DNA of 21,531 bases from a virus, in the IMG/VR virus record IMGVR_UViG_3300048836_001220, positions 1-21,531 of that record; one strand, given 5' to 3'. The position numbers were made by a program, and so were the translations under genes. Of this stretch, positions 1-18,489 are shown one piece after another. The notes under the pieces were generated by a model that did no database searches, was not told the DNA's origin, and was given only the letters and a program-made list of their open reading frames with translations. How positions within the stretch are numbered: position 1 is the first letter of the stretch; each line of letters starts with the position of its first letter.

Positions 1-1101
1 ATGTTGCACTATGCGTCAGGGGCACCGGCCAACGATGACTTCCAAGTGGTCGAGAACCAGTTGGCGAGGCAGCGTCTGTTTTCGGTTCATCCTACCCATA
101 GCAAACCCCTCCGGCGCTGGGTCGATGATCTACACGCTGGCGTTCACTCCTTCCGCGATCAACTCAAGCGCACCCCGAGCCTGAGCGGAAAACTCGCGCG
201 GGCGGATGATCGGATGCGCACGGAACTGGCGGAACGCGGGCACGATCCGGCGACATGGGTGCGATACGAGGACGCGCTACTCGCACTCAGTGAACGCCTC
301 GGCCCCGGATACCCCCGTCGCATCATGCTTGATTCCGGCGCTTTCACGGACTGGAACAAAGGCCATGCAAGCGCCGTGTCGGACGTTGTGCGTTCCTACC
401 GAGGTTTCCTTGACCACGCAGGCGACCTGTTCGACGAGGTATTCCTGATCAACCTCGACGTGATCCCGGAGGTGGATGACCCCGACGATGTGAAGGCTGC
501 GAAGATCAGGGCGTCGGACGAAAACTTTGCGATCTTGAAGGCGGCGTTCCCGAACAACCGTGTGCTGCCCGTCTTCCACCAAGGCGAGGCTTTGAGCCGC
601 CTGACTGAAGTTGTTGTGATGGCCGACGAGTACGTCTGCCTCTCCCCGAACAACAAGGAGCCTGAGAAGGCGCGCGAAATGTGGACACTGTTCCACAACC
701 TCGCGGCTGAGGTCACGAACTGCCACGGCCTCGCGACAACCGGCAACGGCATGATGCGCATATCCGGCCTCTACTCTGGCGACTCGACGTCGTGGCGCAC
801 TCACGGAGGCAACGGCACAATCGACGTTCGCTTTGACGTGGCATGGGATGGGCAGCAAGAGACTGACTGGACCTTGCCCGCCTACCGCAACTTCCACGTC
901 TCTATCGAACGCAACGGATTCGACGGTAAGCGGACGCTACCAAACAACGCGCGGCATATCTCGGAACTGTCCCCTTTCGAGAAATCTCACATCAAGCACC
1001 GGGCAGAGCAGTATCTGCCGTTCCCGATGGTTCAGCTTGACCGCCGCGCCATGAGCATCGTCAGCCTCGGTGAAATCCAGTCAGTGGCGGAGGGAAGATG
1101 A
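1..1101 (+). CDS. TGT/DpdA-like 7-deazaguanine transglycosylase
   Basis: Probable base-exchange enzyme of the tRNA-guanine transglycosylase superfamily, closest in motif pattern to phage and bacterial DpdA-like proteins, which replace guanine in DNA with a 7-deazaguanine. Visible motifs, in family order: LDSGAF (110-115, Asp111 equivalent to the active-site Asp of TDSGG in classical TGT), NLDVIP (151-156), PVFHQGE (190-196), CHGLATTG (241-248) and SGDSTSW (259-265, Asp261 at the position expected for the nucleophile). The CxCxxC zinc cluster of tRNA-type TGT is absent, favouring a DpdA-type or divergent enzyme. At 366 aa it is near usual TGT length, with about 100 residues before the barrel motifs. 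The ATG is the first base of the window, so an upstream start cannot be excluded. Its stop overlaps the next start (ATGA). No preQ0 or preQ1 synthesis genes are nearby, so the substrate would have to come from the host. The superfamily is well supported; DNA rather than RNA as target is inference. Confidence 0.75.
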   Translation: MLHYASGAPANDDFQVVENQLARQRLFSVHPTHSKPLRRWVDDLHAGVHSFRDQLKRTPSLSGKLARADDRMRTELAERGHDPATWVRYEDALLALSERLGPGYPRRIMLDSGAFTDWNKGHASAVSDVVRSYRGFLDHAGDLFDEVFLINLDVIPEVDDPDDVKAAKIRASDENFAILKAAFPNNRVLPVFHQGEALSRLTEVVVMADEYVCLSPNNKEPEKAREMWTLFHNLAAEVTNCHGLATTGNGMMRISGLYSGDSTSWRTHGGNGTIDVRFDVAWDGQQETDWTLPAYRNFHVSIERNGFDGKRTLPNNARHISELSPFEKSHIKHRAEQYLPFPMVQLDRRAMSIVSLGEIQSVAEGR

Positions 1102-2144
1102 TCCTGCCGCCCGACTTCCTTGATCGCCTTAAGGCCGCTCGCGCCTTCACAGGTGCGTTCGCAGAAGCGGCACCGTGGCAACGGCATGTCATCCTGCACG
1201 GCGGCAAACTCTACGCCTCGAACAACAAGCAGATTGTCGAGATCGACTGCGGGATCGAAGGATCGGCCATCCTAACGAAGAAGATGGCGACGCTCATAAC
1301 GGCGATGCAAGGCACCCCGGCAACAATCGAGATCGGGGAATGGGTCCACTTCGGTTGGGAGAACGGGCGCTACCTCAAGGTCAAAAACGAGTACGACCAC
1401 GACGACATTGTAGCGCGGCTGACCGAACTGCTGGATCAGTGGCAAGGGTCTGAAAGCATCGCGACGGTCGATCTTGCAGGCATTGGCCGGGGCATTGCGG
1501 TCACGGACGGCCCGACGATTTCCAGTGGAGCGCTTCCTCCGCGCAACGGTTTCTTTTACTCTGGCAAGGGCACACCATCGTCGCGCCTTGTGCATGGTGA
1601 AGTTGACCTACGCCTCGACGACCTTTTCGGGATCAGACTGTCGGAACTTGCCGCGTCCAAGAAGGCCATCGAACGCGAAATTGACCGCCTCGCCGATGAA
1701 CAGGTTCGGATCGAACGCTTGCAGTCAGAGGCGAGGAAGAAGCTTGAGGCCCACGAGCGCGACGTTGACCGCTTAAACGAGGCCCTTGCGAAGTACCATT
1801 CCAAGGTTGAACTCGACGACAGTGACAGGGAACTGTTGCGGCCAGCCTGCGAGACGACGATCAGGAAAGAGGAAAGCGACGAGCGCCGCGAAACCTTGAA
1901 AAAGGTATCGAAGGAACTGCCGGGCAAGATCAAGGACTGGGATCGTTATTCCGAGACGTCCGACGGCGAGTATGCCTATGTCACCTTCCGGCGCCGGTTG
2001 CCCGCGGCTGACGTGCGCCCTTCGATCAAGAAGCGCATCGCCGAAACACTCAATCAGGTCTTTGCGCCTGACTTCCCACGGGACGAACTGTTCAAGGGGT
2101 GGCCGAGCCTCGGGTCTATTGAAGCAAGGGCGGGTCCATCATGA
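1098..2144 (+). CDS. Unknown protein, beta-rich N half and coiled-coil C half
   Basis: 348 aa, family not recognised. The start ATG overlaps the previous stop as ATGA, so it is translationally coupled to the TGT-like gene. The first 110 residues look beta-rich (for example the stretch around LHGGKLYASNNKQIVEID) and faintly recall sliding-clamp-like phage proteins, but this is only an impression. Residues about 185-300 are strongly charged and heptad-like, with many Glu, Arg, Lys and Leu, so a long coiled coil is likely. No catalytic motif, signal peptide or membrane segment is visible. Given its position it may be an accessory or DNA-binding partner of the transglycosylase; that is guilt by association only. 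Confidence 0.75.
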   Translation: MILPPDFLDRLKAARAFTGAFAEAAPWQRHVILHGGKLYASNNKQIVEIDCGIEGSAILTKKMATLITAMQGTPATIEIGEWVHFGWENGRYLKVKNEYDHDDIVARLTELLDQWQGSESIATVDLAGIGRGIAVTDGPTISSGALPPRNGFFYSGKGTPSSRLVHGEVDLRLDDLFGIRLSELAASKKAIEREIDRLADEQVRIERLQSEARKKLEAHERDVDRLNEALAKYHSKVELDDSDRELLRPACETTIRKEESDERRETLKKVSKELPGKIKDWDRYSETSDGEYAYVTFRRRLPAADVRPSIKKRIAETLNQVFAPDFPRDELFKGWPSLGSIEARAGPS

Positions 2145-2452
2145 TCGCGCTGACTTCCAAGGATGACCTGTGGCGACTGTTCGGCGGTGAAGGGCCGGAA
2201 GCACAAGGAGCTATAGACCTAGCCTACGCTGACTTCTTCGAAAAAACGTCTGTTCTGGACGTCGGCATGAAGAAGGGCTTTCGGCCACGGTTTGCCGTGT
2301 CAGACCCAGACCGCTTCTACCTGCTCCGCAGCCCCGATGTTGAGGCTGTGGTTGATGAAGCACGACTGTATGTCACAGCGGGCAAGATCGGTGGGCCTGA
2401 CCTTCGCGTTGCCTATCTGGGCAACGCATCGAACGTCGTGCGATCAATCTAG
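2141..2452 (+). CDS. Small unknown protein, third gene of the TGT-like operon
   Basis: 103 aa, not recognised. The start overlaps the preceding stop as ATGA, making a three-gene coupled unit from 1 to 2452. The protein is mixed alpha/beta with no cysteine cluster, signal peptide or membrane segment. It ends in tail-to-tail overlap (9 bases) with the minus-strand gene at 2444. Function unknown. Confidence 0.65.
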   Translation: MIALTSKDDLWRLFGGEGPEAQGAIDLAYADFFEKTSVLDVGMKKGFRPRFAVSDPDRFYLLRSPDVEAVVDEARLYVTAGKIGGPDLRVAYLGNASNVVRSI

Positions 2453-3334
2453 GTCCGCTGCCGATTGAATGGCCCGGTCGACTGGGAAGCGAGAAGCCTC
2501 AGCCAATCGTCCTGCCATCAAGCAGCCTTTGCGCGCATCAGCGATGCCAGCCAGTTTTGCGAACGGCAACTTACTTTCGAGGTCTTCCCGATAAGCGCTG
2601 CGCTTTCCGAAGCTCAAGATGCCGGGATGGAAGGCGTCCGCCGCCGCGTTAATCACCTCCTCGACAGCAGCATCGTCATATCTCGAATCTAAGCATTGTT
2701 CTGCTTTGGCCATACTGGAAACCCATGCCTCGAAGGACCGTTCGAAAATCATGCGATATTCGGCGCGGAAGTCCGTTTCGACGCGCTCGCCTTCGCGCAA
2801 GCCCATCGCGACGTAGGAGCAGGACCGGAATTCACTCAGCGCGTTTGACGTGCCATCCAAATTTATCAGTCCGTCAATTGTAATCCCGTCTGAGGTCATT
2901 GCTTCTAGAGCCTGAGCGACATTGTGCTGTTCCTTAATCTCAAATATTCCAGCAGTCTTTTCGCTAACGTCCTTCCTCATCACCTCGAATAGAGCGGTCT
3001 CATCGAAGTCAAAATTTCGGCCTCCTATTTTCACACTCCCAAACGCCTCTTTAAAAGCGCGTTCATCGCGCAGTCCGCGACTATCGAAGAACCTGCCATA
3101 AACGTCAGCGCGATCAGAGACGATGAAATTAATAGACCACACGTCTTTGTAGTTTGAGAGTTGAAGTGTTACGCTTTTTCCTGCTTCGGAGCTCAATGTT
3201 ACAAAACAAGGGTAACCGTTAAAGTTCTTGGAAAAATCCTGCCCAGTTATTGTTTCGGCAGCCGCTGCTCCGGCAGAAAATAGAATTAACAGCGAAATAC
3301 CCACACTTCGAAAATGCCTCGGCCAAATAACCAC
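2444..3334 (-). CDS. Predicted exported protein of unknown function (cargo gene)
   Basis: About 296 aa from a GTG at 3334, chosen because it gives a classic Sec signal peptide: basic RHFR near the N end, hydrophobic GISLLILFSAGA, then AAAE as likely signal peptidase I site. A GGGG stretch lies about 8 bases upstream. The frame stays open upstream to 3502, but that extension is Arg-rich and looks non-coding. The mature protein has four cysteines (in PCFVTL, RSCSYV, EQCLDS and KGCLMA), compatible with two disulphides in the periplasm. Family not recognised. The DNA is visibly richer in A and T than its neighbours and the gene opposes the flanking + genes. Both suggest an independently acquired cargo (moron) gene rather than phage structure or replication. 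Confidence 0.7.
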   Translation of the reverse strand: MVIWPRHFRSVGISLLILFSAGAAAAETITGQDFSKNFNGYPCFVTLSSEAGKSVTLQLSNYKDVWSINFIVSDRADVYGRFFDSRGLRDERAFKEAFGSVKIGGRNFDFDETALFEVMRKDVSEKTAGIFEIKEQHNVAQALEAMTSDGITIDGLINLDGTSNALSEFRSCSYVAMGLREGERVETDFRAEYRMIFERSFEAWVSSMAKAEQCLDSRYDDAAVEEVINAAADAFHPGILSFGKRSAYREDLESKLPFAKLAGIADARKGCLMAGRLAEASRFPVDRAIQSAADLD

Positions 3335-3500
3335 GCCTGAACCCCTAGTTTGGAACGATATGCCGCATCGTAGCCGCCTGACGGTTGAAAGTCGACGAAG
3401 CACTTGATGTTGAGCCAGAATTGTCGTCGAAATTCGACTTCGGTTGACGCAGCGCCGGAGCGGCGTCCAAGGATGCGCCTCAACAATGGGGGCCTTGCTC
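3335..3500. promoter_or_regulatory. Divergent intergenic region with 13-bp palindrome
   Basis: This 166-base gap separates divergent genes (exported protein on -, small protein on +), so it should hold both promoters. I see no convincing sigma70 pair. A perfect palindrome GTCGAAATTCGAC at 3426-3438 is a plausible operator. Assignment is by position and symmetry only. Confidence 0.3.
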
Positions 3501-3710
3501 ATGACCTACGAAGACACAGAGGAAGGGGTCCGCGACATGTTCGCGGGCATAACTGACTTGCCCAATGTCGCCCGCGTTGAGCGGATGCGCAAAGGTGTGT
3601 GGCGGGTCTATTTCGGCGATGGGTCAGAGGCGACGGCCTATCCGCGAACAGCGCGGTTTGAAGAAGACCCCGACACCATGCCGCCAAAGCGCCCGTTTGA
3701 GGCGTGGTGA
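3501..3710 (+). CDS. Small unknown acidic protein
   Basis: 69 aa from ATG 3501 (MTYEDTEEGV...). This start was chosen over the longer frame at 3444 or 3486 because a GGGGG run lies about 8 bases upstream and the extension has no conserved look. It is compact, with a predicted beta hairpin around RKGVWRVYFGDGSEATAYPR, a pattern seen in short phage and plasmid accessory proteins. It converges on the terminase genes, with a hairpin between. Function unknown. Confidence 0.55.
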   Translation: MTYEDTEEGVRDMFAGITDLPNVARVERMRKGVWRVYFGDGSEATAYPRTARFEEDPDTMPPKRPFEAW

Positions 3711-3753
3711 CAGTCGCGCCCCGCGACGATACCCGCGAACCCATGACCCCGCA

Positions 3754-3780
3754 CAGCGCCCGCGCTTTGCCGGGGCGCTG
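3754..3780. terminator. Hairpin between convergent genes, possible bidirectional terminator
   Basis: Perfect 8-bp stem CAGCGCCC (3754-3761) and GGGCGCTG (3773-3780) with an 11-base loop, between the + gene ending at 3710 and the terminase gene ending at 3787. There is no U tract on either side, so it may be a rho-dependent end or only a transcript-stabilising structure. Confidence 0.4.
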
Positions 3781-3786
3781 AGGCAG

Positions 3787-4479
3787 TCAGAAGTATCCGC
3801 GCAGCCTGCCGACGCCGACGTAGCTCTTTTGCAGGCGTTCAGTCTGGAGGTAGGCCAATGCGCAGGCAACGGCGCGGTCGGCATGGTGGCCTTTACCTCC
3901 CCCTTGCAGCACAAGGTTTCCGGCGCTCGTAGTCGCGAGTTCAAAGCTGGCGATCTCCTGCAACAGCAGGTCTTTCTGCGGCAGGTCGCCCGCGATCATC
4001 AAGTCGCCCGTCTCAAAGCCCGATGCCATCGTTTCGAGCAACAGGTTCTTTGAGCAACTCACCTTGTAGCCGTTGCGGTTCATCCCCTCACCGCCCGTCA
4101 TGGTGACGGCCCAGTGTTCGATCCCAGCGGCAAGGAGTTGGTCAGAGAACGGCCCGCCAAGGCCGGACGCGTCAATCGTCAGCACCCATGCGCGCAGCTT
4201 GAACAGGAAGCGCGACAGGTAATTGGCAATGTCCGTGTAGGACGTCTGCGCGATGGTTTCGTGATATACAGCGGTGCGGCGACGCGGGCCAAGAACGAGC
4301 AGTTCGTCTTTCAGCACAGGCAGGCATTCGTCCTTCACGACGACAAGCGCCGTTGGATCATTGCGCCCCAAGTCGCACCCGACTGAGTGACGAGACCAAC
4401 CCGCAATCGACTGGACGCCGGGATCGGCACCCCTGTTCACGGTCACGCGGCCATCTTCATGATAGGTCAAGTCAAGCAT
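3787..4479 (-). CDS. Terminase large subunit, nuclease half (separate gene)
   Basis: 230 aa RNase H-like nuclease of the phage DNA packaging motor; it cuts concatemeric DNA at packaging start and end. An acidic triad is visible: Asp36 in CDLGRNDPTAL, Asp103 in TIDASG, and Asp201 in HHADRAVACALAY near the C end, all in the order known for TerL nucleases. It is encoded apart from the ATPase: its ATG (4479) lies in the -1 frame and overlaps the end of the ATPase gene by 13 bases. A Shine-Dalgarno-like GAGGTG sits about 8 bases upstream, so independent or coupled initiation is likely. Most TerL proteins are a single chain of 450-600 aa; 255 plus 230 aa adds up to that. The intact triad argues against decay. 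A sequencing or assembly frameshift remains possible. Confidence 0.85.
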   Translation of the reverse strand: MLDLTYHEDGRVTVNRGADPGVQSIAGWSRHSVGCDLGRNDPTALVVVKDECLPVLKDELLVLGPRRRTAVYHETIAQTSYTDIANYLSRFLFKLRAWVLTIDASGLGGPFSDQLLAAGIEHWAVTMTGGEGMNRNGYKVSCSKNLLLETMASGFETGDLMIAGDLPQKDLLLQEIASFELATTSAGNLVLQGGGKGHHADRAVACALAYLQTERLQKSYVGVGRLRGYF

Positions 4480-5234
4480 AGGGCTTTCACCTCGTGGTTG
4501 GCCGAGCGGTCGAGGACATCCCACCCGATCAGCGGGACGCCTCCGCCCAAGAATTCGCAAAGGTGTTCTGACCGAAACCGCAGGTCGTTCATGAAACGGC
4601 GGTCATAGGCGACCTTCTCGGTGAGGCGGGGAATATCGACCGACCGCGCATAGATGCGCCGGGTCTTCTTCGACACCCAAGTGTCATAGAAGAACCCCTG
4701 CCGCCCATTGGCCGTGCTGATCATCAGGCACCTGCCCGAGGCCTTTCGCATGGGCAGGAGCGCCGCGATAGCCGCATCCGAGAGGAAGCTGGCTTCGTCC
4801 AGAACCACCGTATCTGCTGTAAATCCCCTCGCCCCGTCTGTGGCAGGAATTGAGATTACACGCCCACCGTTCTGCAATTCGAGTTCGGTCAACGTCTGGC
4901 GGATCACGCGCGGGGCGAAGGGGTCCGCGTTCTTGAAGTCGATCACGCGGCGCAGCAATTCCATCGACTGGCGCTGCATCAGGGCCGCGATCAACACGGT
5001 CTTGCCCCGTGTCGCATCATCCCACGACAGCCCCGCAATGGTCGTTGATTTCCCGACTTGACGCGATGCGAGGCACGTCACGAACTGGTCGTCCGGGTTG
5101 CGTTCGGGGTCCGTCCGCATGATCTCGATCTGGTAGGGGTCAGGCTCCCCAATGGTCATGCGGAACCGCTCCACCGGATCAAGACTGACCGACAGCCCGC
5201 GCAGGAAGGTGTGAAGGTGCTTGTCTTCGATCAC
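4467..5234 (-). CDS. Terminase large subunit, ATPase half (separate gene)
   Basis: 255 aa P-loop ATPase that powers DNA translocation into the prohead. Walker A is ASRQVGKST (56-64), Walker B is TVVLDEA (142-148) with catalytic Glu147, and the coupling motif follows around LMISTANG (about 170). The protein stops right after the ATPase fold, about where the linker to the nuclease should be. The GTG start overlaps the TerS stop (GTGA), and the nuclease gene begins inside its last codons. I looked for a classical X XXY YYZ slippery site across the overlap and saw none, so two polypeptides seem more likely than a programmed -1 fusion. Confidence 0.87.
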   Translation of the reverse strand: MIEDKHLHTFLRGLSVSLDPVERFRMTIGEPDPYQIEIMRTDPERNPDDQFVTCLASRQVGKSTTIAGLSWDDATRGKTVLIAALMQRQSMELLRRVIDFKNADPFAPRVIRQTLTELELQNGGRVISIPATDGARGFTADTVVLDEASFLSDAAIAALLPMRKASGRCLMISTANGRQGFFYDTWVSKKTRRIYARSVDIPRLTEKVAYDRRFMNDLRFRSEHLCEFLGGGVPLIGWDVLDRSANHEVKALCLT

Positions 5235-5806
5235 GGCAGCACCTTCAACACGCGCATTTCGTCAAGGAAGTCGGCCTTTGCTTCGGGATGGCGGTCAAGA
5301 ACGCGGAGGATGATCTCGCGCAGGGTAAGGAATTGCGGGCTTTCGTTGAGGTTCAGGTGGACCGTCAATTCCTTGTTCAGCTTGCCCTGCAACTCAGCCA
5401 GGGCGAGCAGGGACTGCCGGATTTCCCTCAGCGAACCGAGTTGCAACAGGCGATCTTCGTCGCCTTCGGCGTCTTGCAGAAGTGCTTTTAGCTTCTGGAT
5501 CACCCAGCGCAGATCGCCGTCGATTTCGACGCGATCCTCGTTCAGCACCCCCGCCTCGAACTGCTTTGCCGCTAACTTGTCCTGCACCATGACGACGCGG
5601 CGCACGTCCTCAGTGATGTAGGTGTCGCGGAACCGTTGCAGGGTCGTCGTGTCGATCCCGCAGCGACGGGCAATATCGGTCAGGGTGCGCCGTTCAAGGA
5701 CCACATCGCAAACGATCTCGCCCACATCGGGACGCATCAGAAGGACGGGGCGGCGTCCTTGGCCTGCGGGTTTCGGCAAGGCGCGGCGGATAGCATCCAT
5801 GTTCAT
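5231..5806 (-). CDS. Probable terminase small subunit
   Basis: 191 aa. TerS binds the packaging site and hands DNA to TerL. A helix-turn-helix candidate lies around LTDIARRCGIDTTTLQRF in the N-terminal third, followed by a long helical region and a leucine-rich segment, matching the usual DNA-binding plus oligomerisation layout. The ATG at 5806 was preferred over the frame's first ATG (5869) because it gives an ATGA overlap with the upstream gene and has GAGG about 10 bases before it. Position immediately before TerL ATPase supports the role. Exact family not identified. Confidence 0.7.
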   Translation of the reverse strand: MNMDAIRRALPKPAGQGRRPVLLMRPDVGEIVCDVVLERRTLTDIARRCGIDTTTLQRFRDTYITEDVRRVVMVQDKLAAKQFEAGVLNEDRVEIDGDLRWVIQKLKALLQDAEGDEDRLLQLGSLREIRQSLLALAELQGKLNKELTVHLNLNESPQFLTLREIILRVLDRHPEAKADFLDEMRVLKVLP

Positions 5807-6186
5807 TTTGGGTCCATCCTCGGATCGGCGGTCGGATCGGCGGGCGCGCTGCCGTATTGTTTCAGGCATGAACGGTAGTCAGCCATGAGGTCATCCCAAT
5901 GAAGATTCACCACCCCGAGGACTTGTTCCGTCTGCCGAGGAAACGCGTCGAGCGCGCGCTTCGTGAAGGCCTCCTGAACTTCCGGGGATTCGACACGCTC
6001 AAGGATGATGCCCGCGAGCAGGAGAATCGGAACGCGATCACGATCCCGCAGGCGGCGACTGCATAGGATCACGCCGTCCTCCGTGATCCAGATGGTATCC
6101 CGCGCGATAGGATACTTGTGGCGCGGGAGCAGGAAGCGGGCTGCGGTCAGGCGCGCCGCCTGATTGTCAGGGCTTTTGATTGGCAT
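5803..6186 (-). CDS. Unknown phage-type protein upstream of TerS
   Basis: 127 aa, not recognised. It is basic at the N end (KSPDNQAARLTAARFLLPRHKYP) and acidic at the C end, with a central segment around VILCSRRLRDRDRVPILLLAG. It overlaps the preceding gene by 20 bases and the TerS start by ATGA, so it is co-translated with the packaging genes. A packaging-accessory role is suggested by position only. Confidence 0.65.
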   Translation of the reverse strand: MPIKSPDNQAARLTAARFLLPRHKYPIARDTIWITEDGVILCSRRLRDRDRVPILLLAGIILERVESPEVQEAFTKRALDAFPRQTEQVLGVVNLHWDDLMADYRSCLKQYGSAPADPTADPRMDPK

Positions 6187-6805
6187 TTGCGGCCGCCTCC
6201 ATCAACTCGAACTTCTGGCGCGCATGGGCTGGAAGGTCGTCGAGGGTGCGGAAGGTGCGCAGCTTGAGACCTTCGCGTTCAGCAGCCATCTGGCGGTTCA
6301 CGTTTCCCTCGCCCGAGTGCATGTCGGCCCGAATATAGCGGATGCCGTCGTGGGTATCGTCGAAGGAAAAGGTCTTGCTCTTGACGATCTCGGGCTTGCC
6401 CGTGTTCCGCGTCGTCGGGTCTTGCCCGTCAGACGCGATGCGCAGGGGGACGCCACGGGCATCTGCACGGGCCTTTGCTTCACGGTAGGTCTGCGGGTTG
6501 CGGGCCTGTTCGCGGGTCAGGATGATCGCGTTGTGAGTATCGCCCACGCCAGAGGCAAGGCGCATTGTGCCGTCCGGGTTGCGAACAAGGTTTGCATCGG
6601 CAAGGGCCGCGTCGCGCCGATCCTGTTCGAGCTTTTCGAGGAAGGTTGGTTGTTGCGCGCGCTTGCTGTCTTTCTTCTGATCGAGCAGGCGGTCGTTGTG
6701 ATCCTTCACGCCCCGGATGATCTCGTCCTGCTTCTGGACGGTCTCGGTCAGGGAGGCGACTTGCTGGATCAGGGCTCGGAGTGCGGCGGTCGTATCGTCT
6801 GGCAT
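6167..6805 (-). CDS. Unknown coiled-coil protein at head of packaging operon
   Basis: 212 aa, not recognised. The first 70 residues form a likely coiled coil (LRALIQQVASLTETVQKQ and following, then a Lys/Asp-rich stretch); the rest is charged and mixed. AAAGGA lies about 9 bases before the ATG at 6805. It follows a rho-independent terminator (6823-6852), so it needs a promoter of its own or read-through. Scaffold-like, packaging or regulatory roles are all possible; none is shown. Confidence 0.65.
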   Translation of the reverse strand: MPDDTTAALRALIQQVASLTETVQKQDEIIRGVKDHNDRLLDQKKDSKRAQQPTFLEKLEQDRRDAALADANLVRNPDGTMRLASGVGDTHNAIILTREQARNPQTYREAKARADARGVPLRIASDGQDPTTRNTGKPEIVKSKTFSFDDTHDGIRYIRADMHSGEGNVNRQMAAEREGLKLRTFRTLDDLPAHARQKFELMEAAANANQKP

Positions 6806-6822
6806 TGGGCAGTCCTTTCATG

Positions 6823-6852
6823 ACAAAAATGGGCGCGGCGAAAGTCGCGCCC
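6823..6852 (-). terminator. Rho-independent terminator on minus strand
   Basis: Stem GGGCGCG (6831-6837) and CGCGCCC (6846-6852), which on the minus strand is followed directly by ATTTTTG. It lies between the gene ending at 6938 and the gene starting at 6805, about 15-20 bases before that gene's ribosome binding site. It could split replication-side genes from packaging genes or act as an antitermination control point. Confidence 0.6.
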
Positions 6853-6937
6853 TTAAGGTCAGGAAAGGGGTGCGCGCCGCGTCTTGCCGTGATCATGCGG
6901 GGCGCTAAGGTACTGTTGCAACTGAAAGAAAAGGTCT

Positions 6938-7657
6938 TTATGCGGCTTTGACCAACTGTTTGAGGTAGACGCGAAGGCTTGCCCCCGGCTGATATTCGGG
7001 CAGGCGCTCCCCGTGCGATGACCACCTGATTTCGCAATGCGGGAGGGCTGCCCCGAGAGCGTTGATCAGAGCAGCGGTATCACCGTAAATCCCCTCCATC
7101 GCGTTTGCACCCGCCCGCTGTGTCTGCGTGATCGTCCACAGCGCCTCACCGAGTTTGCTATGTGGGGGTGGCAGGGGGCCGAGGAAGCGCGACGTTTCTC
7201 CGTCATTCCATCGACGGGAGGCGCGAATGTGGCCAGCACCCGCGACATAGAAAGGATCGTCGGGGATTTGCAGGTTGATGTCTTCGGGGTCGAGTTGTGG
7301 TGCCGGTGGCCGGATTTTGGGTAGCGGCGCGGGTGGGCGCTTCTTCGGTTTCACCTGCGATATGCGCGCCCACCGATCACGGGCGCAGTCGAGGCGCTGT
7401 GCGAACTGACCGGGAGGGTCGGCCAGACCGTCGAGGATCATCCGCACACGGGCCGCGAGCGCGTCACCATCGAGGTCGAGGTAGGAGCACCACTTGTTGC
7501 GCCAGTATGCAGATTGGCCGTGGCGGTCGGTCAAGTAGCGCATCGCGTGGACGGCGACCGTATCAGCCTGCCGCCTTGTCTCGAACATGTCGGAGATGGT
7601 CTGAGCGAGGATGGCCGCAGCCAGCCTCTGCTCAGGGGTTGAAGGGTTGCCGAGCAC
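6938..7657 (-). CDS. Unknown phage/island protein with Pro-rich linker
   Basis: About 239 aa from GTG 7657, three bases after the upstream stop, so probably coupled. The N-terminal 95 residues are helical, with a HGQSAYWRNKWCSYLDLDGDALAARVRMIL segment typical in style of small phage proteins of unknown role that carry an aromatic/Cys signature. A proline-rich linker follows (KKRPPAPLPKIRPPAPQ), then a C-terminal mixed domain. Function unknown. Confidence 0.65.
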   Translation of the reverse strand: MLGNPSTPEQRLAAAILAQTISDMFETRRQADTVAVHAMRYLTDRHGQSAYWRNKWCSYLDLDGDALAARVRMILDGLADPPGQFAQRLDCARDRWARISQVKPKKRPPAPLPKIRPPAPQLDPEDINLQIPDDPFYVAGAGHIRASRRWNDGETSRFLGPLPPPHSKLGEALWTITQTQRAGANAMEGIYGDTAALINALGAALPHCEIRWSSHGERLPEYQPGASLRVYLKQLVKAA

Positions 7658-7660
7658 GGG

Positions 7661-7921
7661 TCAAAGAGCGTTGCCGATGGTCTGGACCCAGCGCCACGGC
7701 AGGTCGATGCGGCCGATGGCGTTCGAGATACGCAAGCCCATGTCGGTCGGGTCGATGCGGTAGGCAGGCGTATCGACGGGGGCAGTGTTCGGGTTGGTTG
7801 CGAAGGCCAGCAGTTGCGCGCCGAGGTCGGTCGCGTTGTCGAAACGGCAGGCAGAGGTGTTGTGATCTTCGACACGGGTGATGGTCGCAGTGGTGTCGCT
7901 GAGAAGGGCTGTGAACTTCAT
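7661..7921 (-). CDS. Small unknown protein
   Basis: 86 aa, not recognised. It has an excellent ribosome binding site (AAAGGAG about 6 bases before the ATG at 7921), which supports it as a real gene. Predicted mixed fold with no membrane segment. It is the first gene of a pair with the one starting at 7657. Confidence 0.65.
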   Translation of the reverse strand: MKFTALLSDTTATITRVEDHNTSACRFDNATDLGAQLLAFATNPNTAPVDTPAYRIDPTDMGLRISNAIGRIDLPWRWVQTIGNAL

Positions 7922-8013
7922 GGGTTGCTCCTTTGTGCATTCATGAGGTCACGATACAGGAAGCACGGAGGCGGTTGGCGAAAGATATAGGTCTTTCAGG
8001 AGGTTAATGAGGT

Positions 8014-8649
8014 CTAGAAAGGAATGACTTCTCTCTGGAAGATGGACGTCTCGACGATGCGCTGGACGATAACAGGCGCGACCAAGAAGAAGCAGGCAAG
8101 GTCGTCGTGGGCCTGATTATCCCAGTCGGCGAACTTGACGAAGGCATGACCTTTCTCGTCCGCGATGACATACATGCGAGGAGCATAGTAGTCGTCGGTA
8201 GTGTAGTAGGGGGAGCGCGGCGGGGCATAGTCGTACTCGGTTGAATGACCTTCCCACTTGGCCGCGCGGAGGGCAGGCCCGGCGATCTCGTTGGCCGCGT
8301 CTATCCAGCGGGGGTTGTCCCGATCTTTGATGATGGCAGCGGCGGAGCAGATGGTTGCGAGGATGCGGTTGGCATCGCCGAACAGGTAAACGTCCGCGAA
8401 GAACGCACCATGTGTGATCTGATGCTTGTGGTAGCGCACGGTGTAGAAGGCGTCTGCTTTGAGGGCTGCGGCACGATGATGCTCGGCCACGGGATAGAGG
8501 CCTTCCGGGATCGTAGGCAAGGCGTCGTGGGAGGCCGTCAGGGCGTAGGGCTGCTTGTTCGCCCGTGGCAGCATCGGGAAGGAGCGAACGAGTTTCGATG
8601 TGACCCTAAGCAAGCCGAGTGCGCCGTTGGTGGGTTCAAATACAGGCAT
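8014..8649 (-). CDS. Unknown protein, Tyr-rich C half
   Basis: 211 aa from ATG 8649, chosen because GGAG lies 9 bases upstream; the frame's earlier ATG codons (8664, 8682) lack a site. Notable features are a His-rich stretch (VRYHKHQITHG), a Tyr/Asp-rich segment (YYTTDDYYAPRMYV) and a hydrophobic C-terminal patch (ACFFLVAPVIVQRIV). Family not recognised. It lies just left of the candidate origin, with about 740 bases of mostly non-coding DNA before it. Confidence 0.6.
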   Translation of the reverse strand: MPVFEPTNGALGLLRVTSKLVRSFPMLPRANKQPYALTASHDALPTIPEGLYPVAEHHRAAALKADAFYTVRYHKHQITHGAFFADVYLFGDANRILATICSAAAIIKDRDNPRWIDAANEIAGPALRAAKWEGHSTEYDYAPPRSPYYTTDDYYAPRMYVIADEKGHAFVKFADWDNQAHDDLACFFLVAPVIVQRIVETSIFQREVIPF

Positions 8650-9240
8650 CAAGCAATACTCCATTGTTGCTGACGCCATCATGCGGCAAGCGGCGCGGAG
8701 TGATCGACCATGGACTCAGGAGTCTCCTTCGATTGGTGGGGGTGTCAAAAGTTCTGCTAAAATATCCGCGACCCCCATGCCGGGGTGCCGTATCGTAGGA
8801 GAGGGGGTCCACCACAGCAGCGCCCGCGTGACGGGCGGTGTTGATGATAGGGCAAACCACAAGGCACCACCGTGCGCCTCAAGCCACGAGTGCTGCTGTG
8901 GTGACGCTGCGCTGTGCCAAGTTGGATTCCGCGTGTTCGACTGGGTTGTGTGGATAGCAAGTGACCTTTTTGCTCACCATATGCGCTGGATAAGTGACCG
9001 CGTTTGTCAGGTATGTGCTGGGCGGGCGATTGTTGCAGACAATGTTGCAAGCGCGGCGGAAGCAAGGGCGATCTTGCTTAGATCAGAATCGGTTAGCGGA
9101 TCGAAGTCGTTGATTGATGATCAAGTGGTCTGTTTGCGACGGGCCTAGTTGCGACTGGCTCGCAGGAAAGAAGGTGGAGATCGAGGGGCGAACTCGGCTC
9201 GCTGCACGCCAACCAACGACACGTCGCACCGCCAAGAATG
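8650..9240. other. Structured, largely non-coding region beside the origin
   Basis: No gene I can support. A + frame runs 8681-9148 but has unbiased third positions, many cysteines and no ribosome binding site, so it is doubtful. The DNA is rich in inverted repeats. CACCACAGCAGC (8810-8821) pairs perfectly with GCTGCTGTGGTG (8892-8903), and inside it CGCCCG (8821-8826) pairs with CGGGCG (8832-8837). AAGTGACC occurs twice (near 8959 and 8992). This could be a structured RNA, part of the origin, or the control region for the genes to the left. Confidence 0.35.
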
Positions 9241-9382
9241 CAGGCATTACAGGCATTACAGGGGGCTGTATGTAGGGGGTTTTTTATTAGTTGGTTGGTT
9301 GGAAAACACGTCGCCAACCAACCAACTAATTATTTTACCGCTACATGCAGCACCCTGTAATCCATGCGAATGCCTGTAATCC
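9241..9382. repeat. Candidate replication origin: iterons and nested palindromes
   Basis: Core: a perfect inverted repeat with 17-base arms (9286-9302 and 9314-9330, containing three TTGG units) around an 11-base loop. Outside it, 23-base arms at 9253-9275 and 9341-9363 match as an inverted repeat at 20 of 23 positions. The 9-base unit CAGGCATTA is tandemly duplicated at 9241-9258, and inverted TGTAATCC copies lie at 9356-9363 and 9375-9382. AT-rich patches (TTTTTTATTAG, AATTATTTTA) border the core. Iterons, dyads and AT-rich DNA immediately downstream of a primase-helicase gene are the usual marks of a phage or island origin. A + strand terminator function of the central stem is an alternative. 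Confidence 0.6.
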
Positions 9383-9393
9383 GACCCAAACGG

Positions 9394-11868
9394 TCACTTA
9401 CTCACCATCGCCATCAACTGCTCCTCGCTGGGGTCAGACGGCGGAACGATCAACCACTTCCGTGACTTCTTCTCAACTGTCCAGCCACGCTTGCGCAGCG
9501 CAGGCTTCAACTGGTTCATCTCCCGACTGAGTGTCGCTGCCGTCATGGGCAACCGCGCAACGTTCAAGCCCCGCGTCTCAGCGGCCTGCTTCATCATCAG
9601 CAACAATTCCTGCGACTCGCCCCAGAACTTGCCGTGACGCGCCACCGGCTCCTGCATCGCCTCAAGCGCCTGCATCGTCATAGAGTCGTCTGCTGCCTCG
9701 TCCTGCGCCTCGCTCTGCATTTCCATCATTACCTCAATGAACCACATAGGTTCCTTGCCCATGACCCTCGCAACAGCCTCCCCAACAGCACCAAACTCAG
9801 CCAGCCTGATATTGTCCGCGAACTCGTGCGGGTCGATCTCTGGCAGCACCTTCAACACCTCGACCACGAGGCGCGCGATACCCCCGAACATCTTTGGTGC
9901 TGTCGCCAAGAGCGCAGCCTCGAACTCGGATTCGATCATCCGCTTTTCTGGTTTCTCGAGGGTGATGCCGACGATCCGCGAAATCAGGTCCGCTGCATAT
10001 TTCGACGGGTCGATGCCGTTCACTACCACTGCCCGCCTGACGTAGATCGAAAACAGATCGCCGTTGGTGAACAACTGGCGCACCTCGAACCCCATGCCCG
10101 TGCAGATGCCGCAGAGGGTGTCCGAGTAGGGCGTCAGGTCGGACATGTTCTCAAGGGTCAAGACATAGTTGTGCCAAGAGCGAATGAGCAGGTCGTCTTC
10201 GTTCTTGGTCGCCTTCGCAACCATTGCTGTCACAGGATCAATCAGCGACCGCATGACGCGGGTGGTTGAGGTCTTTGCCGATCCGTACTCGCCCGTCAGG
10301 TTTACGATGGGCGACGGGGTGTCGGGGAAGAACATTTTCACGGCGCAGGCCATGAAGATGGTGAACTGGTCATCGTCCATGTTCACCATCGCCCGAATGT
10401 CTTCGAGATCACCCTCGGCGTAGCGCAAAGGAAGCTGCCTTGAGCGGCGGAACACGACAGGACACGCCTCCTCCCCTTCGATGAACCGAGCGCCCTGTGC
10501 CGACAGCATGAGAACACGGTCTTCCGCATCGCACAGATCGACGAAGATCTCGCCCCCCACCTTCGCAACCCGCAGATGCACGTCTTCGATATTGTCATAG
10601 GCGTGTGCCCTTGCCGTTGCGACGACAAGGCTGATCTGCTCCTGACTCGGCGTTGTGCCGCTCTCATAGGCTGCGCGCCGGAGCCAGTCCGAAAACTCGA
10701 TCGAGTCAATCCGCAGCACCCGCCGCGGCCCGACCCTTGCATAGGCCGTTCCATCACCATCACGGAACAGTTTGAGCGACCCGACCACGTCGTCGAGGAT
10801 CACCTTGGTCGTGTTGCTTTTCGCGAGTGCAATCCCGTCAGGCAGGCCACCCTTGTAACCGCCATTGCGCGCATAGGCCCAGAACGCCTCCTTCGGACAC
10901 TTGGTCGCGTCCGGTGCACAGATGTCCTTCTCCCATTTCTTCCGCACATTATCGTCCGACACGAAGCCATCGGACTCGCGGGACCATTCTATTAGCATGT
11001 CGAGGCCATCTTCACCGAACGCGGCGCGGAGCATAAAGCCGCAGGCCAGCCATTTCGCGTAGCCGTCCAGCGATCCCCGCAGGTTCTTCACGGCGGCGAA
11101 TGCTGCACCGGCATCCACTTCCTTGGCCGCTGCTGTCTTCGGTCCCGGCGCGCGCTTCTTTGCGAGCACAAGGTCAACTGTTTCCGGTGCGCTATGTTCG
11201 GTCAGGGCGGCGATACCGTCAGCGTCGATCTGCTCGACCGTCATCAAGACGGACATCTGCGCCAACGGCAGAGCAACGTTGCACGTCCCCTTCCCTTTCG
11301 GCAGCACCTCGATCCTGTGCTCGACCTTGTTAATATTCTCCCGCTTGTTCTTGGAATGCAGCTTGCCTGTGTCGATGAACATGCCCGCCTTCTCGCCATC
11401 AAGTTCGGCACAGAAGGTTTCATGCGGCCAGAACTGGTGCAGGATGGTGTTCGCAACCTTGAGCAGGCTTTCCGCACGTCCAAGGATCGAGTCCGCCCGC
11501 GTTGCCTGCTCATAGACCACCCAGATGTGGTAGCCCTTGCCACCGCCAGAGCGAGCGCAGATGTATGGCACCTTTTCCCTCTCAAGCGCACCGACAACGA
11601 TGCCGACACGGGTGCGCATGACATTCGGGTCTTTCGTTCCGTCGTGATCGTCAAAGTCGAAGACGAGGAAGTGCGTCTGCGGCCCGGCGTCGGACAGGCG
11701 GTTCATGTTGATGCCAATGGGCTGCGTTGCGAGGTGTGCTTCGAGCACAGCGTCGTCAATCTTGCCATCTTTCTTGTAGGCGTATGCCTTGCGGCCATCT
11801 TTGTAGTACAAGTCGAAGCGGCCGGGGCCTGCATATTCGACAATCTGTTTCAGAACTTTCATTTCCAT
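9394..11868 (-). CDS. Primase-helicase replication protein (AEP primase, PriCT-2-like, P-loop helicase)
   Basis: 824 aa, probably the element's own replication initiator. N-terminal archaeo-eukaryotic primase fold: LVFDFDD (68-74, metal-binding Asp pair), SGGGKGYHIWV (107-117), and a third block EVLPKGKGTCNVALPL (187-202) that resembles primases of TOTE-type systems (EvFPKQ...GNLIaLPL). Residues about 255-340 fit a PriCT-2-like linker (YAKWLACGFML...WSRES...KW). The C-terminal P-loop ATPase has an unusual Walker A, GEYGSAKTS (526-534), with Ala before Lys, and a Walker B-like VLTLENM (569-575). It should make primers and unwind DNA at the adjacent origin. Start 11868 is the first ATG; ATG 11862 has better spacing from a GAGAG site. 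Placement between AlpA-like gene and origin matches phage-inducible island layouts. Confidence 0.85.
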   Translation of the reverse strand: MEMKVLKQIVEYAGPGRFDLYYKDGRKAYAYKKDGKIDDAVLEAHLATQPIGINMNRLSDAGPQTHFLVFDFDDHDGTKDPNVMRTRVGIVVGALEREKVPYICARSGGGKGYHIWVVYEQATRADSILGRAESLLKVANTILHQFWPHETFCAELDGEKAGMFIDTGKLHSKNKRENINKVEHRIEVLPKGKGTCNVALPLAQMSVLMTVEQIDADGIAALTEHSAPETVDLVLAKKRAPGPKTAAAKEVDAGAAFAAVKNLRGSLDGYAKWLACGFMLRAAFGEDGLDMLIEWSRESDGFVSDDNVRKKWEKDICAPDATKCPKEAFWAYARNGGYKGGLPDGIALAKSNTTKVILDDVVGSLKLFRDGDGTAYARVGPRRVLRIDSIEFSDWLRRAAYESGTTPSQEQISLVVATARAHAYDNIEDVHLRVAKVGGEIFVDLCDAEDRVLMLSAQGARFIEGEEACPVVFRRSRQLPLRYAEGDLEDIRAMVNMDDDQFTIFMACAVKMFFPDTPSPIVNLTGEYGSAKTSTTRVMRSLIDPVTAMVAKATKNEDDLLIRSWHNYVLTLENMSDLTPYSDTLCGICTGMGFEVRQLFTNGDLFSIYVRRAVVVNGIDPSKYAADLISRIVGITLEKPEKRMIESEFEAALLATAPKMFGGIARLVVEVLKVLPEIDPHEFADNIRLAEFGAVGEAVARVMGKEPMWFIEVMMEMQSEAQDEAADDSMTMQALEAMQEPVARHGKFWGESQELLLMMKQAAETRGLNVARLPMTAATLSREMNQLKPALRKRGWTVEKKSRKWLIVPPSDPSEEQLMAMVSK

Positions 11869-11869
11869 A

Positions 11870-11886
11870 TCTCTCTATCTGAGAGA
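11870..11886 (-). promoter_or_regulatory. Hairpin covering the primase ribosome binding site
   Basis: TCTCTC and GAGAGA pair (6-bp stem, 5-base loop) immediately before the primase start. The GAGAG that would serve as Shine-Dalgarno is in the stem, so translation could be damped unless the hairpin opens. The stem is short, so the effect is uncertain. Confidence 0.3.
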
Positions 11887-11916
11887 CTGGTCCTCAAACA
11901 CCGGTTCAGGATCGAC

Positions 11917-11945
11917 GTGAATACCGCTATAAATCAGTTATTCAC
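11917..11945 (-). promoter_or_regulatory. Possible promoter/operator of the primase gene
   Basis: Perfect 7-bp inverted repeat GTGAATA (11917-11923) and TATTCAC (11939-11945), with a TTTATAG element between that could be a -10 for leftward transcription, about 60 bases before the primase start. A regulator such as the AlpA-like protein or a repressor might bind here. No clear -35. Confidence 0.3.
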
Positions 11946-11965
11946 TTTGCGCAGACGATCCGATG

Positions 11966-11988
11966 GGGGCGAGAACCAATCTCGCCCC
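11966..11988. terminator. Strong hairpin directly after the AlpA-like gene
   Basis: Perfect 9-bp stem GGGGCGAGA (11966-11974) and TCTCGCCCC (11980-11988) with loop ACCAA, starting 3 bases past the stop codon of the 11991-12239 gene. No U tract follows on the minus strand; on the plus strand only TTT follows. Could attenuate alpA-primase read-through or protect the alpA mRNA end. Confidence 0.4.
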
Positions 11989-11990
11989 TT

Positions 11991-12239
11991 TCACTTTCCG
12001 ACCCGACGCTCGCGCGCCCATGCAACCACATCGTCCCGGTCATACCGGATCGTGCGTTCGGTTATGTGCAACCAAGGCGGACCTTGCGTGGCCGAGCCGG
12101 GGCGCCTGCGCCAGTCGAACAGCACACTTTCGGAGACGCTAAGGAATTCCGCACACTCGGCGGGGGTCATGAGTTTTGGTGCGTGAGAAATCTTCTCGAC
12201 GGTTTCGCGCAGCGCGCGAATTTCTTCTGCGAGGTCCAT
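11991..12239 (-). CDS. AlpA/excisionase-like HTH regulator
   Basis: 82 aa. Residues about 24-77 form a winged HTH of the MerR-like excisionase/AlpA type: LMTPAECAEFLSVSESVLFDWRR, then a wing segment ending IRYDRDDVVAWARER, the characteristic end of this family. A short helical N-terminal arm (MDLAEEIRALRETVEKI) precedes it. GAGG lies about 8 bases before the ATG at 12239. Proteins of this family direct excision (Xis) or activate the island's int and replication genes. Its location between integrase and primase is the usual place in phage satellites. Confidence 0.8.
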   Translation of the reverse strand: MDLAEEIRALRETVEKISHAPKLMTPAECAEFLSVSESVLFDWRRRPGSATQGPPWLHITERTIRYDRDDVVAWARERRVGK

Positions 12240-12355
12240 AGGGCTACCCTCAATTTCGCGTGTGAGGGGAGGACGGGGGCACTATGCCGTGACCCAAGGC
12301 GATTGGCTGGTATTTGTCCTCAACGGAAGCCGCTAATCCAGCCGCGACGCTCCCG

Positions 12356-12397
12356 CATATAGCCCACGGTCGATTACATGTCGCCGTGCTTTGTAAT
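12356..12397 (-). promoter_or_regulatory. Candidate promoter and operator for alpA-like gene
   Basis: Leftward sigma70-like pair: -35 GCGACA (12379-12384) and -10 TATATG (12356-12361), 17 bases apart, each 4 of 6 to consensus. An inverted repeat ATTACA (12373-12378) and TGTAAT (12392-12397) overlaps the -35 side. ATTACA also occurs in the origin iterons, so one protein may recognise both. The 5' leader would be about 110 bases. Weak evidence. Confidence 0.35.
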
Positions 12398-13602
12398 TAA
12401 GACCCATTCCCAAGGCGTTCAACTACAGTTTGAGAAGTGAAGTTGTTTGACGTGACAATCTCCTCGGCGATGGCGTTGACGTGGGCATGTGTGCCCGCTC
12501 GTGTCAGATAATGCCCAACCATCTTCTGTTGATCCGAACTGATCTTGTCGCCGCGCAGGTGCGCCACGACGTAGTCAGGCAGCAGCACGTTCGCGCCCGC
12601 CGCAGTGAACAGACGCCGCGTATCGTGCTGGCGTAGCACTTTGGTTTCGACCCGCTTGCCATCCACCTTTTCGACTTTGCTCAGAGCGGCGAGCGAGTAG
12701 ATGTGCCCAGTGCGGGAGTCGGCGGGGAACACCCAGCCCTCGCGATGTGGCAGCGCAGACAACGCCGTCACGAGCAGGTCGGAAATCGGGAACGTCCTAT
12801 CGAGGCCGTTCTTCATCTTCCGCAGCGTGATCGTCTTCGCGGCAAGATCGACCTGATCCCAGTTCAAGGTGATCACAGACAGCGACCGCATCCCGGTGAA
12901 CAGCATGGTCAGCCATGCCGTCCGATGCACTAGGCTCGACATGTCGAGGATCAAACCCAGCGCAGGTGACTCTTTGCTTTCGTCAAAGAGGATCTTCGGG
13001 GTCTTCCGCTCCACCCCTTTCACCTTCAAGTTCAGTGCGCGGTTCGGCAGGTTCTCTCGTGACTGACAGGCACGACGGAAGGCCATCTTGAGTAACGTGG
13101 CGCAATGCTGCGCCGTCGATTTCTTCCCCTCCGTCTTCAACTTGGTCAGGAGGTCATTCATCACGTCGAAGGTGACGCGCTCAACAGGCATGTCGAAGAT
13201 CGGGTCGAGATGGTTCTTCACCTGCAAGCGGTAGTTGTCTTCCGTCTGGGGCTTGAGGGTGCCATCAGCGCGGCTCTCACGGCAGTGGGCGTCGAAGGCA
13301 TCGCGCAGCGTCGCAATCTTGGTTGTTGCGGCATCCGTGCCCGTTGTCAGTTCGCGCAGTTTGCTCTCGGCAAACTTCCACGCCTCATTGCCCGACGGCA
13401 GGTCAGGCCAGTGGCCGAGGGTGATCGACTTGACCGATGCCCCTACACGCTTCGACAGTATCCACGTCTTTTTGCGTGCACCAACGGCAAGGCGCAGGCC
13501 GGGAAAGGAGTCGCCCTTATGGGAGAAGAAGGTCGTTCCTGTCTCGGGGTTCTTAATCGCTTCGATCTTCGGACGCGACCGGAGGTCTGCTTGGTTCGCC
13601 AT
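12397..13602 (-). CDS. int: Tyrosine recombinase (integrase)
   Basis: 401 aa site-specific recombinase expected to insert and excise element 1 at tRNA-Asn. N-terminal arm-binding region (LRLAVGARKKTWILSKR, resembling P4-type integrase starts), a SAM-like core-binding domain (about 95-185), then the catalytic domain. Visible active-site residues, numbered from 13602: Arg239 (TGMRSL), His326 and Arg329 (HDTRR), and probable nucleophile Tyr365 (GHYLT). The His usually found before the Tyr block appears as Asp352 (LRGDK), an unusual substitution. ATG 13602 was chosen because AGAGGA lies 11 bases upstream; ATG 13626 is an alternative. The gene is about 140 bases from the tRNA fragment and reads away from it. 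Confidence 0.88.
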   Translation of the reverse strand: MANQADLRSRPKIEAIKNPETGTTFFSHKGDSFPGLRLAVGARKKTWILSKRVGASVKSITLGHWPDLPSGNEAWKFAESKLRELTTGTDAATTKIATLRDAFDAHCRESRADGTLKPQTEDNYRLQVKNHLDPIFDMPVERVTFDVMNDLLTKLKTEGKKSTAQHCATLLKMAFRRACQSRENLPNRALNLKVKGVERKTPKILFDESKESPALGLILDMSSLVHRTAWLTMLFTGMRSLSVITLNWDQVDLAAKTITLRKMKNGLDRTFPISDLLVTALSALPHREGWVFPADSRTGHIYSLAALSKVEKVDGKRVETKVLRQHDTRRLFTAAGANVLLPDYVVAHLRGDKISSDQQKMVGHYLTRAGTHAHVNAIAEEIVTSNNFTSQTVVERLGNGS

Positions 13603-13604
13603 GT

Positions 13605-13723
13605 TCTGCAACATCCTCTGCAACATTCAGTTGCGACAACATACGATCAGACACGATGATGACCAACTCATTTTTGTTGCAAACCACATAAAAACAATGA
13701 CTAACCCGGTCAAACACGATGAT
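13605..13723. repeat. Repeats between integrase and att core (possible Int/Xis arm sites)
   Basis: TCTGCAACAT is directly repeated at 13605-13614 and 13617-13626 (12-base period), then a GTTGCGACAAC dyad lies at 13630-13640. ACACGATGAT occurs at 13651-13660 and 13714-13723. Clusters of short direct repeats between int and the crossover site are typical of arm-type integrase and excisionase sites, and may also autoregulate int. No gene is present from 13627 to 13741. Confidence 0.4.
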
Positions 13724-13741
13724 ACACGACCCAGACAAGGC

Positions 13742-13788
13742 GTCTGTTAATCAATTGGTCGTAGGTTCGATCCCTACCGCCGGAGCCA
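13742..13788 (+). other. att site: 3' part of tRNA-Asn(GTT)
   Basis: Anticodon loop CTGTTAA, TCAAT stem strand, variable loop, T arm (GTAGG TTCGATC CCTAC), acceptor strand CGCCGGA, discriminator G and CCA (13786-13788). Upstream bases do not form the matching 5' acceptor, D arm or anticodon strand, so this is a fragment, not a working tRNA. It marks the right attachment end of element 1. The identity start in the anticodon loop is a usual crossover point for tyrosine integrases. The complete tRNA-Asn is predicted left of this window. Confidence 0.8.
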
Positions 13789-13944
13789 AATTACCCTAGT
13801 AAATCAGTGATTTACGAGAAACCCCGCAAGGGTTCTCAGGGGTGTTTTGGCGTTAGTAAGCACATAGTAAGCATTCCTTTGCGGTCTGTCTTTCACCTCA
13901 CCCTCGTGATAGGTTTGCTAGTAAGGGGATGAGGGAACATAAAC
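13789..13944 (+). terminator. Intergenic after att: two hairpins, tRNA-type terminator, short repeat
   Basis: GTAAATC/GATTTAC hairpin (13799-13815), then a stem GAGAA-CCC/GGG-TTCTC (13816-13837) with a TGTTTT tract near 13843-13848. This is plausibly the original terminator of the tRNA gene or the edge of element 2. TAGTAAGCA is directly repeated at 13854-13862 and 13865-13873. No gene seen. Confidence 0.45.
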
Positions 13945-14397: not shown

Positions 14398-14408
14398 GCG
14401 AAGCATTT

Positions 14409-18469: not shown

Positions 18470-18489
18470 GTTAGCGCCTTTCCTTGACG

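Follow-up and report, generated by a model that had tools for sequence, protein, structure and literature searches.

The window analysed here, a linear fragment of 21,531 bases that is a complete IMG/VR record, begins at base 1 with a dpdA gene (1–1101, + strand) encoding a 366 aa homologue of the TGT-fold 7-deazaguanine transglycosylases. Since Met1 of this protein aligns with Met1 of full-length phage DpdAs (N-termini: window, MLHYASGAPANDDFQ; phage DpdA, MHLYMSGTPRNDPYQ), the gene is complete, and the ATG at base 1 probably reflects how the provirus record was cut. Two further genes follow on the same strand, g2 (1098–2144) and g3 (2141–2452), and the three overlap stop-to-start (1098/1101 and 2141/2144), the dpdA stop and g2 sharing 4 bases.

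By its genes and its att borders, the region from about 1 to 13791 is a phage satellite of ~14 kb, inserted at the 3′ end of a tRNA-Asn gene in Rhodobacterales. The right attachment site (13744–13791, + strand) is a 48 bp copy of the 3′ end of tRNA-Asn(GTT) and the bases following it, and lies just outside the integrase gene (12397–13626). It is 100% identical to positions 9781–9828 of an Acidimangrovimonas sediminis sequence, at the tRNA-Asn gene 9751–9825, a match of which 0 are expected by chance. In that genome, a dpdA gene 41% identical to that of the window is found ~170 bases after the tRNA-Asn, and att recurs 14.2 kb further on. The possibility that dpdA is the truncated end of a larger phage was ruled out by the Met1 alignment and by the tRNA-Asn just upstream in A. 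sediminis. A preliminary description, made from the window's letters, had placed dpdA on a phage-type island, and the att/tRNA-Asn borders support a small satellite-like one.

The genes listed next are all on the − strand. The cargo region continues with a gene for a 352 aa protein with an N-terminal hydrophobic stretch (2444–3502) that has no Pfam, PHROG or PADLOC match. The terminase large subunit (TerL) is encoded by two open reading frames, one for the nuclease half (3787–4560; phrog_27743, E 2.2e-32; orthologues in L100, L149–L151 and L154) and one for the ATPase half (4467–5234; phrog_7579, E 9e-49). These are followed by a probable terminase small subunit (TerS) with a helix-turn-helix (HTH) domain (5231–5869), recognised by its position, weak HTH matches and orthologues at the same place in L100, L149–L151 and L154. 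Two genes without assigned function come next, the first conserved in sister satellites (6167–6805) and the second in L100 and L154 (6938–7657). A replication protein with AEP primase and PriCT-2 domains (9394–11868; PF22548 and PF08707, both over cut-off), an AlpA-like HTH protein (11991–12239; PF12728, E 2.8e-5; orthologues beside int in all sisters) and a tyrosine integrase (12397–13626; PF00589; 50% identical to the integrases of L100 and L108) complete the element.

The same arrangement is seen in the complete 14.2 kb element of A. sediminis MS2-2, L100, which runs from att through dpdA, g2, g3 and a TIR gene to, on the opposite strand, TerL (two ORFs), TerS, small genes, a portal, the primase, the AlpA-like HTH gene, the integrase and a second att. 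The window follows this order from 1 to 13791, with no recognised portal and with the left att just outside the record. Identical att copies of 44–48 bp mark the element borders; they match at both ends in L100, L149, L150 and L151, while the window record contains the right att only. No capsid or tail genes were recognised in window 1–13791 or among the tested L100 proteins. Integrase, AlpA-like HTH, primase, terminase, tRNA attachment site and a swappable cargo slot are features held in common with PICI-like and P4-like satellites that carry defence cargo; the Rhodobacterales tRNA-Asn family differs in that it has TerS and a TerL split over two ORFs, that most members also have a portal gene, and that no capsid or tail genes were recognised.

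Genome samples at the level of the family (397), order (395) and class (385), which may overlap one another, were used for comparison, and an integrase-profile search of the 397 family genomes yielded more satellites. L149, L150 and L151 are complete elements of 15.2–15.3 kb at tRNA-Asn, with the same att as the window; L154 lies near a tRNA-Thr. All six satellites compared have TerL as two overlapping ORFs for the ATPase and nuclease halves (window, 3787–5234; L100, 4497–6096; L149, 7536–9100; L150, 7814–9305; L151, 6592–8080; L154, 9473–11058), so this looks like a two-protein terminase or a frameshifted gene, and not a sequencing error. In L108 (6310–9303), primase and terminase nuclease half form a single in-frame fusion protein of 997 aa, probably by deletion of the intervening genes.

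DpdA of the window carries the motifs LDSGAF (residues 110–115), PVFHQGE (190–196) and SGDSTSW (259–265), which had been picked out in the preliminary description and which are conserved blocks in an alignment of 28 relatives. Residues S112, G113, A114, D153, H193, S259, D261 and S262 are invariant in this alignment, and D111 and Q194 are present at 90% or more. By equivalence with ZmTGT, we take D111, D153, Q194 and D261 to be the catalytic Asp and the base-binding Asp/Gln residues (codons: D111, 331–333; D153, 457–459; D261, 781–783; all + strand, as is that of H193, 577–579), and at the level of the primary sequence the catalytic Asp motifs are retained. The 9g-type DpdAs have a conserved histidine (His196) that is absent from DpdA2 (PMC6884629), and H193, invariant in the 28 relatives, is a candidate counterpart. 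The window protein matches phrog_887 of PHROGs, 'queuine tRNA-ribosyltransferase' (E 2.7e-29), and gave no match above cut-off in Pfam and NCBIfam searches. As a sequence-profile search of the PDB was empty, structure prediction was needed. An AlphaFold2 model of the single chain, computed with 25 relatives as the alignment (pLDDT 86.3, pTM 0.87), was compared with the PDB by Foldseek, and ranks 1–18 were all tRNA-guanine transglycosylases (best E 3.2e-5, prob 1.0). The window protein is thus predicted to have the TGT superfamily fold.

A tRNA-modifying TGT paralogue, altering host or phage translation, would share this fold, and the common database name of the family points the same way. Several observations make this reading very unlikely. 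With two cysteines in all, the window DpdA is unable to build the CxCx2C...H zinc site that tRNA-TGTs have, in agreement with the earlier claim that the tRNA-type zinc cluster is lacking; the tRNA-TGTs of related hosts keep CTCPAC...H. Host tRNA-TGTs reach 480–500 bits on TIGR00430, and the window protein has no NCBIfam or Pfam TGT match. In a maximum-likelihood tree, a branch of 8 changes per site sets the host tRNA-TGTs apart from the DpdAs. A tRNA-TGT was already present in each host genome checked (5/5). Tree, zinc site and NCBIfam results together rule out the window gene as a tRNA-TGT; phylogeny, named in the preliminary description as the comparison that could overturn a DpdA assignment, upholds it, as do the fold and the absent zinc ligands. 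The family of the window DpdA and its predicted chemistry are strongly supported.

The closest named relatives, at 41% identity, are from the Nanhaivirus-type phages R5C and R26L (both Dinoroseobacter) and Pan1 (Pseudanabaena), in each of which dpdA lies within a queD-queC-folE-queF-dpdA...queE operon. The five DpdAs from satellites or cassettes are monophyletic in the tree (support 100/99) and sister to the Nanhaivirus-type DpdAs (support 99/96), with which the window protein shares the motifs and its alignment from Met1. The Nanhaivirus-type phages differ in having folE, queD, queC, queF, queE and a full-length clamp, whereas the satellite has no pathway and a reduced clamp, and a C-terminal insertion of ~60 aa in their DpdA is absent from the window protein. 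The 9g/CAjan-type systems are alike in the TGT fold, the Asp motifs, probably the His and the placement of dpdA beside a replicative clamp; they belong to large phages that encode a preQ0 or G+ pathway themselves (PMC6884629), whereas the window enzyme is found in a satellite of ~14 kb. IMG/VR searched with DpdA, g2 and integrase patterns gave no further copies nearer than the phage DpdAs, a search of plasmids for DpdA gave none, and a search for literature on DpdA together with satellites or sliding clamps found nothing relevant.

The second gene of the cassette, g2 (1098–2144, + strand), encodes a beta-clamp domain (residues ~5–115), a linker, a coiled coil (~173–273) and a small C-terminal beta/alpha part. 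A profile–profile comparison matched it to phage clamps (prob 98.6, single comparison), and a profile combining g2 with the phage proteins encoded beside dpdA matched DNA polymerase III beta clamps in the PDB (E 2.8e-9). Because the latter profile mixes g2 with phage proteins, the direct evidence for g2 is the profile–profile match and the predicted structure. In the single-chain AlphaFold2 model (pLDDT 74.6), a single clamp domain is joined by a disordered linker to a long coiled coil; Foldseek places beta clamps at all the top ranks (best E 2.2e-3, prob 1.0), with alignments that cover no more than ~112 residues. A ring-closing protomer has three clamp domains, and in g2 a single domain (~5–115) aligns, which rules out a full sliding clamp. 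Similarity to Mu Gam-like or SMC-like proteins was confined to the coiled coil, and these candidates were rejected.

A clamp is also a common neighbour of dpdA in phages, and it is apparently from such a replicative clamp that g2 derives. In phages 9g and CAjan, dpdA adjoins the genes for the replicative clamp and polymerase or is one gene removed from them. For 84 loci, the sequence downstream of dpdA extended over 4 kb or more; a clamp-like gene on the same strand lay within 4 kb downstream in 49 of them and within 300 bases in 28. This synteny is suggestive only: the loci do not count as independent, clamps are part of replication modules, and the pattern may reflect nothing beyond a shared replication module. 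A same-strand sliding clamp follows dpdA in about half of the viral loci (L013–L070, L123 and L124), the gene ends often overlapping.

The third gene, g3 (2141–2452, + strand), encodes a 103 aa cassette-specific protein with RLFGG...YLL...RL motifs and no assigned fold. Its orthologues occur only beside dpdA-g2, in L100, L108, L109 and L129. The gene of 103 aa behind dpdA in R5C was considered as a relative and gave no match.

These four genomes share dpdA, g2 and g3 jointly with the window. The preliminary description had suggested a stand-alone enzyme, and this does not hold, as dpdA opens a conserved cassette whose other two genes encode a clamp-derived protein and a small protein. In L129, the proteins are 65% (DpdA), 53% (g2) and 59% (g3) identical to those of the window, and the cassette is in chromosomal surroundings, with integrase, primase and terminase absent. 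Values of dN/dS between the window and L129 are 0.10 (dpdA), 0.10 (g2) and 0.24 (g3), with dS saturated, and indicate that this copy, outside any recognisable satellite, is under purifying selection. The intact orphan cassette of L129 (3587–6049) adjoins a gene for an RTX-type calcium-binding protein. In L109 (11517–17259), the cassette is in a segment of 5.7 kb that extends from tRNA-Lys to a 30 bp repeat of its tail and has no integrase; the cassette therefore uses more than one attachment site.

Not all copies are intact. The DpdA of L109 has Gly in place of D111 (D111G), and its g2 is split into two overlapping ORFs; as L109 encodes g2 as two proteins, the clamp domain and coiled coil need not share one chain. 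The g2 reading frame of L108 is broken. A dpdA remnant of 41 codons, 88% identical, is found behind a tRNA-Asn-type att in Thiosulfatihalobacter (L089 and L102), and a remnant with a stop in L110; G283 and G002 are host genomes with remnants. A decaying, phage-derived passenger without present function would leave such remnants and such damage as D111G and the broken g2, but in the window, L129 and L100 the frames are intact and conserved and dN/dS is low, which makes this quite improbable. The two damaged copies, L109 (D111G) and L108 (g2 frame), also count against the explanation that we prefer below.

Searches of the window with FolE, QueD, QueE, QueC and QueF HMMs gave no match, confirming the earlier observation that folE, queD, queE and queC are absent. 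As the window is the whole IMG/VR record, its lack of these genes would by itself say little, but the complete homologous element L100 is likewise without the pathway. Nearly all viral and genomic DpdA loci have several of the five genes in the stretch retrieved, and the window, L100, L108 and L109 have none. Stand-alone DpdAs have been described in 76 phages that also lack the precursor genes, with supply by the host proposed (PMC6884629), so presumed host supply is not in itself new. Those enzymes are from Mycobacterium and gamma-proteobacterial phage clusters, whereas the window DpdA is a separate lineage with a g2-g3 operon. Among the six host genomes, QueC was above cut-off in G001, G055 and G283 and not in G144, G002 and G552, and a YhhQ-type precursor transporter was above cut-off in all except G283. 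With QueC (de novo preQ0) or a YhhQ-type transporter in 6/6, every host checked can make or import a 7-deazaguanine precursor, and the proposal that the enzyme lives on host preQ0/preQ1 is plausible.

The base might also come from a helper. If a helper phage destroyed or ignored unmodified DNA, the satellite DpdA could copy the helper's deazaguanine mark, with the helper's pathway supplying the base. The phages with the nearest DpdAs share the host order and have a complete precursor operon, and G144 and G552 have an intact dpdA and no QueC; both points favour such camouflage. It is nevertheless improbable, given that nothing marks the Nanhaivirus-type phages as helpers, that the QueC-less hosts have the YhhQ-type transporter and that the satellite terminase matches other phages.

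The position of the cassette bears on its role. In the window element, dpdA-g2-g3 is the outermost cargo operon; there and in L100 it fills a slot between the tRNA end and the terminase. The slot holds a Thoeris ThsB-type TIR protein with SLATT and DUF5677 proteins in L149, a PDDEXK/AlwI-like (restriction-endonuclease-like) protein in L150, a pair of proteins without assigned function in L151 and a C5 DNA methyltransferase in L154. Because the sister satellites fill the slot with such genes, the cassette is likely, by position, to be cargo of the defence or modification type, and the slot of the tRNA-Asn satellites is a place to seek new defence systems. Directly behind dpdA-g2-g3 in L100 (3273–4463) is a gene for a TIR_2 protein with a C-terminal DUF3298/PdaC-like region.

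The defence-cargo slot and the L129 copy outside a satellite make the guarding of satellite DNA, as first proposed, one of several readings. Anti-phage defence or interference with a helper is the main rival: the clamp fragment would mimic or poison a phage clamp and DpdA would act on the replicating phage DNA, or the cell's own DNA would be marked. The slot itself, the TIR-domain gene after the cassette in L100, and the three genes retained under purifying selection in L129, where there is no satellite, favour it, and the nearest phages have both dpdA and a full-length clamp. It is still unlikely overall, since no nuclease, protease or toxin domain was found in dpdA, g2 or g3, and PADLOC gave no convincing match for them, those of g2 being to the coiled coil only. 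The bacterial dpd cluster (dpdA-K), the known defence use of DpdA, requires restriction genes absent here; it has DpdA homology in common with the cassette, and its 7-deazaguanine DNA mark is known from the literature, but the window cassette has no dpdB-K homologues and PADLOC gave no Dpd match for the window DpdA.

The explanation that we prefer, at somewhat below an even chance, is that dpdA-g2-g3 is a satellite cargo cassette in which a clamp-recruited DpdA puts host-derived 7-deazaguanine into DNA and so protects it against restriction. DpdA would swap guanines of DNA for a 7-deazaguanine (preQ0 or preQ1), DNA being the presumed substrate because of family membership, as phage CAjan depends on DpdA to modify and protect its DNA (PMC6884629). 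The cell's queuosine pathway, its uptake of precursor, or a DpdA phage infecting the same cell would supply the base; g2, as an adaptor, would recruit DpdA to DNA or the replication machinery; and the modified DNA would resist restriction nucleases. Both the targeting by g2 and the biological benefit of the cassette are inferred. The L129 cassette counts against self-protection of a satellite, since there it has no satellite and is unexplained unless a remnant.

The simplest history would be a single capture of dpdA-g2-g3 from a Nanhaivirus-like Rhodobacterales phage with dpdA, a sliding clamp and a preQ0 pathway. After capture, the pathway would have been lost and the clamp cut down to one domain on a coiled coil. 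A phage satellite would then carry a base-replacement system fed by host queuosine metabolism, and the precursors of tRNA modification would be tied to the conflicts of mobile elements within a bacterial order that is abundant in the sea.

To our knowledge, the mechanism by which DpdA chooses phage over host DNA is not settled. A satellite stripped to DpdA, one clamp domain and a protein of 100 aa suggests that the clamp could be the partner that targets DpdA. More tentatively, dpdA-g2-g3 could be a minimal targeted DNA-modification machine, in which the clamp domain on its coiled coil loads DpdA onto replicating DNA and the preQ0/preQ1 is host-made; phage DpdAs too would then work through the neighbouring clamp.

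The remainder of the window (13792–21531) holds a second, tandem element with the same att, encoding an HK97 capsid protein, protease, portal, HNH protein and another TerL, and may be a capsid-forming satellite or part of a prophage. A single prophage from 1 to 21531 was ruled out, as the att at 13744–13791 separates two modules, each with its own terminase. Next to the att, the second element has a small + strand gene (13945–14397).
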